A stretch of DNA of 64,000 nucleotides, from the NCBI GenBank assembly GCA_027493875.1, contig JAOSJX010000002.1, forward strand, positions 1 through 64,000, given 5' to 3'. Each line of letters opens with the position of its first letter. Position 1 is the first letter of the stretch. The DNA comes from Deltaproteobacteria bacterium. GTDB taxonomy: Bacteria; Lernaellota; Lernaellaia; JACKCT01. Below the pieces are notes generated by a model, which saw nothing but the letters and a program-made list of their open reading frames with translations, ran no database searches and was not told the origin of the DNA. Made by a program: the position numbers and the translations under genes. Shown piece by piece: positions 7,261 through 26,540 of the stretch.

Positions 7261-7475
7261 TCGGTTATTCGGCTAGCCACGCCGAAGGCGTGGTTATCCG
7301 GTTTTCCGGTTATCCAGTTATTCGGTTTTTAGGTTATTCGGTTATCCGGTTTTCCGGTTATCCAGTTATTCGGTTTTCCGGTTATTCGGTTGTTCGGTTG
7401 GATAGTTTTTCGGCTGGCCACGCCGAGTCGTGGTTGTTCGGTTATCCGTTTTTCGGTTTTTTTGCTAATTCGGTT
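7261..7475. repeat. Degenerate tandem array, ~8-nt period (GTTATTCG/GTTATCCG/GTTTTCCG), with internal 48-nt duplication
   Basis: Identical 38-nt stretch GGTTATCCGGTTTTCCGGTTATCCAGTTATTCGGTTTT at 7292 and 7340 (48 nt = 6 x 8 apart); hairpin CCACGCC-GAA-GGCGTGG at 7277-7293 and degenerate CCACGCCGAGTCGTGG at 7418-7433. Confidence 0.9.
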
Positions 7476-9875: not shown

Positions 9876-10362
9876 CATCAGGTGGGCGCGGTCGACAGTT
9901 TTCAGTCAACAGTTATTGAGATTTGCATAATTAATGGCACGGTGATTTTCCATCAGGGCTTCCGCGGTGCCGGCCCCTTCGGGGGCTTCTCGATCTTCTT
10001 CGCGCTTTTCCCCAGGGCTCACCAGCCTTCGCTAAAGCTACGGCGTGGCAGGCGCCGCGGGCTACTCCCCGTCGCCGCGCAAGCGGGGCTCGCGTTCGAT
10101 CGGCGATCACGCCTCGGGGGGACGAAACGCCCGAAGGGCGTGACAGGGAATAGCCAGGCGCGTCAGCGCCTGGGATCGGATCGAAGAACAAAACAGCCCC
10201 GAAGGGGCCGGCACCGGATCGCCGCCGCGCGGATAGGATAGCGCGACGCCGGGTCGAAGCATTATTAATACAGAGGCCTATAACAGCATTCTCCGGCGTC
10301 GCGGCCGTTTTCGTCCGTGCGAGCTTTCGACTTTCGACTTTGAACTTTGAACCGTCAACCAA
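9876..10362 (-). repeat. Composite intergenic repeat, copy 1, apparently interrupted by a palindromic cassette (~9936-10258)
   Basis: Shares GTTCAAAGTCGA-AGTCGA...CACGGACGRAARCSGCCGCGACGCYGGAGAATGC and ACYGTYGACTGAAAACYGTCGACCGC with 25227-25345; interior bounded by GCATAATTAAT (9925-9935) and GCATTATTAAT (10259-10269). Confidence 0.7.
9966..10215. repeat. REP-like palindromic cassette with near-perfect terminal inverted repeats
   Basis: GGTGCCGGCCCCTTCGGGGGC (9966-9986) and GCCCCGAAGGGGCCGGCACC (10196-10215); internal hairpins CGCCCGAAGGGCG and CCAGGCGCGTCAGCGCCTGG. Confidence 0.75.
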
Positions 10363-12495: not shown

Positions 12496-12573
12496 GAAGC
12501 AGGCGGCAGGCTACAGGCGGCAGGGGCCGGCGGCAGGGAACAGGAGACGGGCGGCGGGAGGCGGGTTATCGGG
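12496..12573. repeat. Degenerate 7-nt-period tandem array (GCGGCAG-like)
   Basis: GAAGCAG/GCGGCAG/GCTACAG/GCGGCAG/.../GGAACAG/GAGACGG/GCGGCGG/GAGGCGG. Confidence 0.75.
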
Positions 12574-22256: not shown

Positions 22257-23759
22257 ATGCTTACCCGAAAAACCGTTGCCATCACTGTCTTTTTCTGCCT
22301 TTTGACGGCACCCGCGGTGTTCGCGGACATTCACGCGGGACCGTGGCTCATGAACTTGTCCAAGCGCGGCGTGACCGTCAAATGGGAGTCGGTCGAACAG
22401 CCCGGCACCGTGGAATGGGGCGAGACCGAATCGCTCGGCAATACGCTGGACGCGGAATACGACGGCACCGCCATTCACAAGGCGACGCTCGAATGCCTGA
22501 AGCCTGAAACGCGTTATTACTACCGTGTTAAGTCGGGCGCGTCGCAAACAGCAATCGAATCGTTCTTCACCGGCCCGGAACGCGATACGCCTTTCACGTT
22601 CGTGGTCTACGGCGACACGCGCAACAACATGGACGATCACCAGAGCGTGGTGGATGCCATCGTCGCGGACGCGCCGGAGTTCGTGGTCCACGTCGGCGAT
22701 CTGGTCGACATCGCGATCTGGCAACCGGAATGGGATGATTTCTGGGCCGTCGCGGAATCCATGACCAAAACGATCCCGTTTTTCCCCATCATGGGCAATC
22801 ACGAGTTTTGGGGCGGGCAGCCGCTGTTCCGGCGCTACTTTTCGAACCCGCTCGCGCCCGCGGACGAAGGCAGCCGTTACGCGTTTTCGTACGGCAACGC
22901 CTATTTCATCATGATCGATATCGCGCAGCTCTTCATTCCCGGTTCGGCGCAGTACGCGTGGGTCCAATCCCAACTTCAGGCCGCGGCAGACGCGCCGGGT
23001 ATTAAGCACTGTTTCGTCTTCGCGCACTTCCCGCCGTTCTCCGCCGCGAACCACGGCGAGGACCTGGACGTGAAGTCGTTCCGCAACGCGATGACGCCGC
23101 TTTTCGAACAGTACGACGTGGACCTGGTTTTCGGGTCGCACGATCACAACTACCAGCACAGCAAGGTCAACGACATCGATTACATCGTCACGGGCGGCGG
23201 CGGCGCGGATACGTACAGCGTGCATCCGGAGGCGTGGACGGTCGTCGGTGAGGAAGTCCTGAACCACGTGCTCGTCGAAGTGGACGGCGACCTCGTGACG
23301 ATCACCGGCAAGCGGCCGAACGGCTCGGTGATCGAGACCTTTGACGTGCAAATGGATTTCGGCGGCGCCGGCACGGGCGACGATTTTCCCGAGCTTTGCT
23401 ACGACAACGATTACGACCTCGACGGGATTGTGGACGGCGAGGAATACGCCGGCTGCACGAATCCCTACGACGCGGACACGGACGGCGATACCTACAACGA
23501 CGGCGACGAAATCGACGCGGGAAGCGATCCCTGCGATCCGCTCTCCGTTCCTTCGGGTGATGACGACGCCGATGACGATGCGGACGATGATGCCGACGAC
23601 GACGCCGACGATGACGTCGACGATGACGACGATTTCAATCCGCCGGGCGACGATGATGACGATACCGCTGGCTCCGACGATGACGCCGCGGATGATGACG
23701 ACGGCACCCCCGTCACGGGCGACGACGATGACGACGGCGGCGGCGGATGCGGCTGTTAA
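22257..23759 (+). CDS. Purple acid phosphatase-like metallophosphoesterase with C-terminal Asp-rich tail ending GGGGCGC
   Basis: VYGDTRNN, HVGDLVD, MGNHEFW, GSHDHNYQHS; signal peptide; tail DDDADDDADDDADDDADDDVDDDDD...DDGGGGCGC. Confidence 0.85.
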   Translation: MLTRKTVAITVFFCLLTAPAVFADIHAGPWLMNLSKRGVTVKWESVEQPGTVEWGETESLGNTLDAEYDGTAIHKATLECLKPETRYYYRVKSGASQTAIESFFTGPERDTPFTFVVYGDTRNNMDDHQSVVDAIVADAPEFVVHVGDLVDIAIWQPEWDDFWAVAESMTKTIPFFPIMGNHEFWGGQPLFRRYFSNPLAPADEGSRYAFSYGNAYFIMIDIAQLFIPGSAQYAWVQSQLQAAADAPGIKHCFVFAHFPPFSAANHGEDLDVKSFRNAMTPLFEQYDVDLVFGSHDHNYQHSKVNDIDYIVTGGGGADTYSVHPEAWTVVGEEVLNHVLVEVDGDLVTITGKRPNGSVIETFDVQMDFGGAGTGDDFPELCYDNDYDLDGIVDGEEYAGCTNPYDADTDGDTYNDGDEIDAGSDPCDPLSVPSGDDDADDDADDDADDDADDDVDDDDDFNPPGDDDDDTAGSDDDAADDDDGTPVTGDDDDDGGGGCGC

Positions 23760-23762
23760 ATT

Positions 23763-23839
23763 AGTAGCCAGTAGCCAGTGGCCGGTAGCCAGTGGCCAGC
23801 GGCCAGTAGCCAGTAGCCGGTAGCGAGTGGCCAGCGGCC
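23763..23839. repeat. 7-nt-period tandem array (AGTAGCC/AGTGGCC), 11 units
   Basis: agtagcc agtagcc agtggcc ggtagcc agtggcc agcggcc agtagcc agtagcc ggtagcg agtggcc agcggcc directly after a stop codon. Confidence 0.95.
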
Positions 23840-23917: not shown

Positions 23918-25159
23918 ATGCTCATGCCATGGATGAGGCGGATCGGCGCCGCCGTTTTCACGATCGGCTTCCTGCCTTGCGCGTCATTCGCGCAAGAAAG
24001 TTCACCCTGGGACACGCGTATCGTCGGTGACGCCTTTCTTTCGTGGCGTTCCAACATCACGGTTTGGTACGAAAACTACGATCGGCGCCGCGAGACGACC
24101 GGAGATCAATATTTCACGTTCGATCGCCTGCGCCTCGGCGCGGAAAGCCTGAACGACGACGGCTTGTCCGTTCGCCTCTCGATGGAAGTGACACAACCCG
24201 ACGCCAGCCAGCAGGGGCGCAAAGGCGCGTACATTTCTCCAAGGGATATGGAAGAGCCGCCCGCCTGGCAACTCGCCCCGCAGGCCGCTTGGGCGCGCTA
24301 TCAGGCGGGACGGGGCTTTGCGATTTCCGGCGGGCTCGTTCCGACGTCCTACATAGGATTTCTCAATAAGGCCTGGCGTTTCCGTTTTCTGGAAAAGTCG
24401 CCCTATGAGCTGTGGCTTTTTCGCCGCGCGCCGCTCACCGACCGATTCATTGTGCTCGAAGACGCCGTCTCGCTCCGGCCGGTGGCCGATCCCCGGGAGC
24501 CGCCGACCGAGACGGACCTCGGCGTTACGATTGATGGCCGTCCGCTGGGGCCTTTCGTTGAATATCAAATCGGTTACTACGCCGGCGAAGGCAACGCCAT
24601 CGCGGAAACAAGCCCCGGCAAAGCCGGCGAGGCCCGGCTCACGCTTTACCCGCTGGCCAACGTCGATCTCTTGGAGGGGCTCTCTCTCACGGGATTTGTT
24701 CACGCCGAGAAAGTCGAACCGGACGAAGAAGAAACTCTTTTTCGCTACTGCGGGCTGTTTCACTACTCCGTCCTCACGCGGCACGGACGCTCTTTAGGCT
24801 TGGGCGCCGAATTGGATAACCAAATTTATCGGCCGCGGCGCGACGCGACGGAACACGAAATCATCCACTCCATCCTCTTTTCCTTTTTCTTCTATACGGA
24901 GACCGCCCCCGATCTCTTTCTTGTCTTCCGCCACGACCACCTGGATCCCAACAATAGGAACGGCACGCAATCGAACGGCTACAAAGACGAGCAAAGCCTG
25001 TTTCTCCTCGGCCTCGTCTACCGTTTCAACGCTCACGTTCAGGTCGGCGGAAATCTTCGTCTCATCAGCAAGCGAGAGGAAATACTGAACAACGCGCATA
25101 AAAACCGAATTTCCGATCCGGAGGGTTTCTCGTTCGTTCAGCTCGGCCTGGAATTTTAA
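23918..25159 (+). CDS. Outer-membrane porin-like protein
   Basis: Signal peptide; RLRLGAESLNDDGLSVRLSMEVTQPDASQQGRKGAYI...ARYQAGRGFAISGGLVPTSYIGFLNKAWRFRF; terminal VQLGLEF. Confidence 0.55.
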   Translation: MLMPWMRRIGAAVFTIGFLPCASFAQESSPWDTRIVGDAFLSWRSNITVWYENYDRRRETTGDQYFTFDRLRLGAESLNDDGLSVRLSMEVTQPDASQQGRKGAYISPRDMEEPPAWQLAPQAAWARYQAGRGFAISGGLVPTSYIGFLNKAWRFRFLEKSPYELWLFRRAPLTDRFIVLEDAVSLRPVADPREPPTETDLGVTIDGRPLGPFVEYQIGYYAGEGNAIAETSPGKAGEARLTLYPLANVDLLEGLSLTGFVHAEKVEPDEEETLFRYCGLFHYSVLTRHGRSLGLGAELDNQIYRPRRDATEHEIIHSILFSFFFYTETAPDLFLVFRHDHLDPNNRNGTQSNGYKDEQSLFLLGLVYRFNAHVQVGGNLRLISKREEILNNAHKNRISDPEGFSFVQLGLEF

Positions 25160-25226
25160 GGTTAGAGCGCTTCACTGTTTTTCGTAGCCGTCTATCGACC
25201 GCGTCGGTGGTTCATCGGTGCCGCCC

Positions 25227-25345
25227 GGTCGACAGTTCACAGTTCAAAGTCGACAGTCGACCCCCCCCACGGACGGAAGCCGCCGCGACGCTGGAGAATG
25301 CCGTCAACCGTCGACTGAAAACCGTCGACCGCACCTGCCTCGTCA
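25227..25345 (+). repeat. Composite intergenic repeat, copy 2 (uninterrupted): heptamer array - GC-rich core - heptamer array
   Basis: CGACAGT/TCACAGT/TCAAAGT/CGACAGT/CGACC, core CACGGACGGAAGCCGCCGCGACGCTGGAGAATGC, then CGTCAAC/CGTCGAC/TGAAAAC/CGTCGAC. Confidence 0.75.
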
Positions 25346-25378
25346 TTGTCGAGGAGATCCGTAAATTCGCGAACCGCT

Positions 25379-26540
25379 CTAGAACTGGAAGAGCACATTG
25401 CCGCCCACGATGGGGGCCTGATAGCCTTCCTCCAGCCCGTTGCGCGGCGTCTGGTAGTAGTAGTCGAAGTCGATGCCGCCCGAGACGCGCGTCGCGCCGG
25501 CGGGGAGATCTTCCGCGAGATAGACCAGCCGGAGACCGCCCAACCACGATTGAAATCCCTGGAGCACCGCGTTCGCGGGAATAATCGTCGTCCACTTCCG
25601 GGTCCGCGGCGACCGTCGAGTACGGCGAGGCAAGCTGCCGGTAGTATCGAGCGCGGGCTCTTAGCATCGTGCGTTTGCCGACGCCGAAGAACCACGCGGC
25701 CGTCCCGCTCTGCCCGTCGCACCCCCATTCGTCCCAGCCGTATTGGTAATCGGCGCGTAGCGACATCCTCTTTCGCAGATATCTGGTCACCGTGATCGAC
25801 CCGGCCGCCCGCGCCCGGTTTTCGGGAAGCTTTTCGGCGCCCACCGTCTTCGCGGCGGGGGGTGACCGCAGAATCACATCTCGCTCGGGACTTTCAAGGG
25901 CGCCGCGCTCGACGCGCGCCATGGCGGCCACGGTGGCCACCATTTTGCGGCTGAGAATCTGCTGCAACGCCAACGATCCGCCGTCCGTGTCCTTACGGCC
26001 CGGAAGATCGAGTTCCGCCTTACGCTCGTTATCGTCGGTCATGACCTTGTCAAAATTGTGGTACCACGTCGCCGCAATCGACGCGTTACGGTGGGCGAGA
26101 TACCGGCGGTACGACGCGAACGCCGTGTGACTCTCGTAAACCGACTCGTGGGAATAGATATAGCCGGCGGCCGCATCGTTTTCACCAACGAGGGCGCGGC
26201 CGAAAGCGGAAAGTTCCCGGCGTGTTCGTATCCAATTCGGCTGGCTGATCTCAAATCGACCGCGCTGCCGATTGGAGAACCCGCCAACATACGCGTCCTC
26301 GACGGTATTCCCAACCTTCGTCGACGCCGACGAAATGCCGTCGACCAGCGCTCGCGCCGTGACGGAATAGCGGCCGTTCAAGCCCTTCGTGTAATCGACG
26401 GCCCCCGTAAGAATATAATTGTTCTCGGTATCGGCGAAGATTCTAATGAGAGAACCGAGTTCATCGCTCCACGCGGCGGCGGGCGTGATAAAAGCCAGGC
26501 AGGCCGCGAGAAGGGCCGTCGCTCGGAAGCGCGAGGACAC
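25379..26540 (-). CDS. DUF3570-like outer-membrane beta-barrel protein (frameshift near 25600)
   Basis: ORFs 25212..26540 and 25379..25633 (ends GGNVLFQF, OMP-like terminal Phe); adjacent to a DUF4266-like lipoprotein, a recurring pairing. Confidence 0.6.

Follow-up and report, generated by a model that had tools for sequence, protein, structure and literature searches.

Heptameric units are favoured among the long simple sequence repeats of prokaryotes, which, as the survey of Mrazek et al. (2007) is reported in PMC4679880 and PMC4692102, are intergenic and occur sporadically among genomes. Polymerase slippage is the explanation for the heptamer preference that the same two papers report from that survey, and why bacterial intergenic repeats prefer seven bases has been an open question since 2007. 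Arrays of GGGAATC in Xanthomonas and of GGGGA(C/T)T in Nostoc are mostly intergenic, include some inverted pairs, and vary in length and sequence between related genomes, those of Xanthomonas sitting close to the end of the 5' neighbour (PMC4692102). Direct repeats of TAACTGA, the function of which is not known, occur in many sets per genome in marine Beggiatoaceae, cyanobacteria, and some Bacteroidetes; they lie just upstream of start codons and have an invariant unit, and related heptamers are rare (MacGregor 2015; PMC4679880). Finally, the P6b stem-loop of the Nostoc trnL intron contains the degenerate heptamers TDNGATT and NNTGAGT, the arrays of which are complementary on its two arms and change by gain or loss in steps of 7 (PMC4476775).

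The arrays described here share their 7-nt unit and intergenic location with the repeats surveyed in 2007 but are degenerate, fall into several genome-private families, and have fixed variable columns, whereas the earlier surveys, as these two papers present them, counted repeat classes. Xanthomonas and Nostoc each carry one G-rich family per genome; here there are at least six families, mostly not G-quadruplex-like, and the run of three or more G that marks G-quadruplex heptamers does not occur in the main cores (AGTNGCC, CCTGNNN, GTAGGTN, AAGGAYG, CCTCGYA, and GGTTNNN). As with TAACTGA, many sets of one heptamer are present per genome and the distribution across phyla is patchy, but our arrays have mosaic units and are enriched near stop codons rather than placed at start codons. 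A constant core with variable positions is common to our arrays and to trnL P6b, although the latter is confined to one structured intron whereas the former occur at many intergenic sites and mostly lack a partner arm. An analogy to the heptameric STRR arrays of cyanobacteria, drawn in a preliminary description of this locus, is apt. The arrays are a rich new example of known intergenic heptanucleotide repeats, not a new kind, and the 7-nt preference, having already been published, is not itself new. What they offer is a combination (a common period, genome-private sequences, two-copy seeds that are not in excess, and vocabularies that differ between genera) that turns the question posed in 2007 into testable parts, because the expansion step, seen in the period, becomes separable from the dispersal step, seen in the vocabulary. 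Studies of single heptamers could not make this separation.

Sample and array scoring

The assembly comprises 5.21 Mb in 28 contigs (approximately 78% complete, approximately 62% G+C), and the window, meaning the whole stretch of DNA under study, covers the initial 64 kb of C2. We scanned 2.06 Mb, consisting of all of C2 and parts of C1, C12, C22, and C23, in which genes were called approximately by a simple codon-usage caller trained on the sample. Segments were scored at lag p, with a score of at least 13 defining an array, and scores in the window were compared with six order-3 shuffles of the 0.45 Mb of intergenic DNA. Relatives G001-G006 were used for comparison; G002 belongs to another genus of the same family, and its vocabulary was compared by pattern only.

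Arrays in the window

7292-7400, minus strand: period-8 array of the same mosaic kind, 13 units of the AACCGGAT family, plus strand reading GGTTATCC (TRF)
10324-10360, plus strand: array of CTTTCGA/CTTTGAA, about 5 units, score 17.5
12499-12565, minus strand: degenerate array of the CCTGNNN family, plus strand reading GGCAGGC / TACAGGC, score 15.0
22257-23759, plus strand: gene preceding the focal array, encoding a calcineurin-like phosphoesterase whose Asp-rich C-terminal tail ends in GGGGCGC
23763-23839, plus strand: focal array, 11 units of AGTNGCC (N is A or G here), lag-7 score 35, of a family that recurs at many loci of the genome
23918-25159, plus strand: signal-peptide gene ending ...LGLEF and a stop codon, downstream of the focal array
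25232-25261, plus strand: array of 4 units, ACAGTTC/ACAGTCG, score 13, lying between convergent genes (gap 25160-25378)
25302-25330, minus strand: weak stretch of CGTCAAC/CGTCGAC, score 4.5, alone not significant as an array

Six period-7 sites had been claimed in the window. Four of these (beginning at 23763, 10324, 12499, and 25232) stand, their scores being unmatched in six order-3 shuffles of the 0.45 Mb of intergenic DNA, while the remaining two, at 25302-25330 (4.5) and 9893-9914 (4.0), are at chance level, about 21 segments with such scores being expected by chance in the intergenic DNA of the window. The focal array contains a 35-bp higher-order duplication with a 94% match (TRF), and exact CCTGNNN x4 is present at 12500-12524 within the array at 12499-12565. 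The sites had been called unrelated in sequence, which is incorrect: the 23763 array is of the AGTNGCC family and the 12499 array of the CCTGNNN family, the 25232 array and the 9893 stretch resemble each other (CAGTTGA-like), and these families are found again elsewhere in the genome. Judged by a 13/18 match, the stretch at 25302-25330 may be a degenerate inverted partner of the array at 25232-25261. Folding of this pair (25232-25330) is no better than that of shuffles (z -0.48). A constant period had also been proposed, and 7 nt does dominate, but the period-8 array at 7292-7400, missing from the original list, means that the period is not strictly constant.

The intergenic placement of each site, in contrast, is upheld. 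The focal array begins 3 nt past the stop codon of the phosphoesterase gene. An ORF on the minus strand seems to span the 25232 array, yet its match to DUF3570 stops well short of the array and another frame ends ...VGGNVLFQF with a stop codon at 25379, which places the array in the convergent gap. This DUF3570 barrel gene (25212-26540, minus strand) is frameshifted, with its proper end (...VLFQF, stop) in the other frame, and resembles the result of an assembly indel. The product of the gene at 23918-25159, which has no Pfam match, looks like an outer-membrane barrel. The intergenic region that holds two of the claimed sites also contains, at 10126-10173 on the minus strand, a match to the Rfam family Acido-Lenti-1 RNA (RF01687) that exceeds the gathering score, at 40.7 bits.

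The 7-nt period across the genome and in other phyla

The expectation that period 7 would be enriched genome-wide is borne out. Intergenic DNA (0.45 Mb) contains 63 period-7 arrays with scores of at least 13, compared with 0.0 in shuffles. Period 8 has 8 arrays and period 13 a single one, and arrays of periods 4, 5, 10, and 11 are absent. Periods 6, 9, 12, and 15 occur more often in coding DNA, and 13 period-7 arrays are found in 1.6 Mb of called coding DNA, in which some gene calls are doubtful. Beyond this genome, AGTNGCC x4 is present in at least 118 stretches in GTDB genomes of many phyla, with hosts that include Streptomyces, Scytonema, Hymenobacter, Clostridium, Treponema, Acidobacteria, and Planctomycetes, and non-AGTNGCC arrays at 118 loci of other phyla comprise 115 of period 7 versus 14 of periods 8-13. 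The 7-nt preference is real and is seen in many phyla. The idea that AGTNGCC is a special pan-bacterial signal was rejected because composition controls in viral contigs show no privileged status for this heptamer (54 stretches for AGTNGCC x3, 42 for the reversed pattern, 50 for a variant with N elsewhere, and 17 and 21 for two scrambles); that the vocabularies of other phyla do not match the one found here also counts against it.

Heptamer families private to the genome

Six core families account for 90 of 109 arrays, some of which come from stretches picked for AGTNGCC, so that the following counts per family are no census:
AGTNGCC: 20 arrays
CCTGNNN: 24 arrays
GTAGGTN: 19 arrays
AAGGAYG: 10 arrays
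CCTCGYA: 6 arrays
GGTTNNN: 11 arrays

Core columns are mostly more than 90% conserved, and the variable columns are identical across loci of one family. When consensus units from C22 and C12 were compared with those from C1, C23, and C2 in a split-half test on unbiased contigs, 45% matched exactly (5% for permuted units) and 86% matched within one mismatch (28% for permuted units); a corresponding test against the vocabulary of other phyla gave no sharing beyond chance. AGTNGCC x3 is absent from relatives G001-G006, GTAGGTN x4 is present in this genome only when compared with these relatives, and CCTGNNN x4 occurs 172 times in this genome, 6 times in G002, and once in G004. CTCRATC x3, with 186 occurrences in G002, has 0 in this genome. 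On these pattern counts, the vocabulary is private and is replaced between genera of one family while the period is kept. The common mechanism that had been suggested for the arrays is supported to the extent that the period survives this replacement and that 7 nt is also favoured in unrelated phyla.

Arrays of AGTNGCC in other phyla are mostly homogeneous, a single N base being used in 73 of 129, whereas all 16 of 16 examined here mix N bases. Likewise, the likeness of neighbouring units has a lag-1 z of 0.3 here versus 13.8 in other phyla, and a lag-2 z of 3.1 here. Hypervariability at N as a universal feature was dismissed because of this homogeneity elsewhere; mosaics do exist in some other genomes, such as the Planctomycetota genome G033. 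A near-perfect array of 19 x AGGCTAC at C23:128491-128625 contrasts with the mosaic arrays of the same genome, showing that homogeneous arrays occur here as well.

Paralogous arrays and two-copy heptamers

Steady growth from doublets by 7-nt slippage should leave an excess of two-copy 7-mers, and there is none outside the arrays (33 versus 44 expected); a threshold model, in which take-off occurs from rare chance doublets only, would be compatible with this count. Among array pairs with flank homology, the majority share a single flank, implying that homology ends at the array, although one-sided homology is in part expected anyway where the shared flank is coding. The arrays at C24:164448 and C12:25595, the flanks of which are 95-97% identical, differ at 6 of 10 N positions and at 0 of 60 core positions, as counted by eye. 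Those at C12:410078 and 411225 have identical first seven units and then diverge, to 16 and 32 units, and another paralogous pair has 13 versus 15 units. As read from their sequences, such pairs point to units that are replaced quickly around an unchanging core. The idea that blocks of units are exchanged between loci (p ~0.03 for CCTGNNN, none for AGTNGCC) was set aside because the support is weak. Loss of mismatch repair as a cause was also rejected, since both MutS and MutL are present. The MutS gene (C1:283000-286000) is split across two frames with several switches, and these breaks resemble assembly indels; frameshifted genes such as this one and the DUF3570 barrel gene may account for the low completeness of the assembly.

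Position of arrays and the ends of genes

Divergent gaps are depleted of arrays (8 of 70 arrays versus 233 of 1223 gaps) and convergent gaps are enriched (16 of 70 versus 187 of 1223). Moreover, a stop codon is no more than 15 nt away for 20% of arrays, compared with 8.4% expected, while no excess is seen within 15 nt of a start codon (9.7% versus 8.8% expected). An inverted partner within 150 bp is found for 18 of 83 arrays, compared with about 7% in the null, and several such pairs flank terminator-like hairpins (for example, C22:64861-64974 and C12:41637-41743). The idea that all arrays act as terminators or hairpins was rejected, given that the folding of array-adjacent DNA does not surpass that of random intergenic DNA. 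In G002, CTCRATC arrays often form opposite-strand pairs about 90-110 bp apart (C16:264-441, C44:2777-2924, C69:28406-28549), which resemble the inverted pairs of this genome. At C12:399787-400128 a unit of about 122 bp is repeated in tandem, and every copy contains arrays of CGAATGA and ACCTACC with a GC-rich hairpin between them.

Asp-rich linkers ending ...GGCGC or ...CCGC characterize a large class of proteins that look secreted, with 47 members in the sample including the product of 22257-23759, and these ends resemble a C-terminal sorting tail. In the contiguous sample an AGTNGCC-like sequence starts 0-3 nt past the stop codon in 4 of 26 CGC-tailed genes versus 2 of 1763 others (p 5e-7, an optimistic value because the tail pattern was picked after seeing cases); with extra loci selected for their arrays, the count is 9 of 47 CGC-tailed genes, three being tandem paralogs. 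It is conceivable, if quite improbable, that lineage-specific copying, more than slippage, spreads private heptamers to the 3' ends of genes, the arrays acting as recombination junctions that graft an Asp-rich ...CGC sorting tail, stop codon, and AGTNGCC array onto new genes while each genus builds its own vocabulary. Were arrays indeed recombination junctions at gene ends, this would bear on the spread of C-terminal sorting tails.

Origin of the arrays

We lean towards an explanation in which arrays are copied within the genome and their units turn over fast, with expansion generally biased to 7 nt. Tandem expansion in DNA free of coding constraint would be biased generally to a 7-nt step, with 8 nt second, perhaps as a property of the polymerase or of slippage, and this bias would set the period. 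A small private set of heptamers would then have been copied to many intergenic sites by duplication and recombination, with junctions often in arrays; recombination would probably be responsible instead of a dedicated element. Within arrays, gain, loss, and reshuffling of unit blocks would turn units over quickly while the core stays, which would be why paralogous arrays differ both in length and in how their unit variants are ordered. No function would be necessary to explain the arrays, most of which are probably neutral. Against this explanation, many loci vary at one and the same column of the unit and adjacent units lack clonality, neither of which is predicted by simple slippage. The weak support for block exchange between loci also counts against it, as does the one-sided homology that coding flanks would partly produce in any case. 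Fixed variable columns and absent neighbour clonality go beyond what copying and turnover alone provide, so that selection may also act on the core.

Independent birth at each site, by 7-nt-biased replication slippage from a chance doublet of arbitrary unit wherever intergenic DNA tolerates it, corresponds to the slippage hypothesis of Mrazek (2007) as reported in PMC4679880. It would fit the dominance of period 7 in unrelated phyla, the near confinement of arrays to intergenic DNA, and the homogeneity and strong neighbour clonality that slippage predicts and that arrays of other phyla display. Lag-1 clonality is missing in this genome, however, the units come from a private vocabulary, and doublets of 5-nt and 6-nt units arise by chance far more often, yet period-5 arrays are nil. 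Taken with the absence of a doublet excess and the replacement of the vocabulary in a relative, this shared vocabulary favours copying, and we consider independent births unlikely. The preliminary description had argued for birth rather than descent, a view that the private vocabulary, the homology usually ending at arrays, and the doublet count speak against. Selection offers another route, in which the cores would be DNA or RNA recognition sites or parts of 3'-end structures, the free positions would drift, and inverted pairs would be extended terminator stems. Conserved core columns and fixed free columns at independent loci are consistent with this proposal, as are the placement near stop codons and in convergent rather than divergent gaps, the inverted pairs around terminator-like hairpins, and the AGTNGCC starts just past the stops of CGC-tailed genes. 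That no family keeps to one array strand with respect to adjacent genes, that most arrays lack an inverted partner, that neither array-adjacent DNA nor the window pair folds unusually well, and that the vocabulary is swapped between genera make selected elements decidedly unlikely.

A mobile element that contains or moves arrays, for example a Y1 (IS200/RAYT-like) transposase acting on hairpin-flanking arrays, is very improbable in our judgement. Y1_Tnp matches are unusually numerous (23 in this genome versus 1-7 in six relatives) and many short interspersed repeats adjoin arrays, yet the transposases are not tied to arrays, and the shared flanks vary from pair to pair with no common ends. REP/BIME elements are a fixed imperfect palindrome linked to Y1; here Y1 is abundant, but the majority of arrays are unpaired and share no flanking sequence in common. 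Two insertion-sequence-like repeats are each present as two copies that are 98-99% identical (L038:468-760 / L046:6170-6460 and C12:61560-61860 / L047:10000-10360). Each copy abuts a heptamer array, but the array family differs at each copy, so that insertion beside existing arrays is more likely than transport of arrays by the element.
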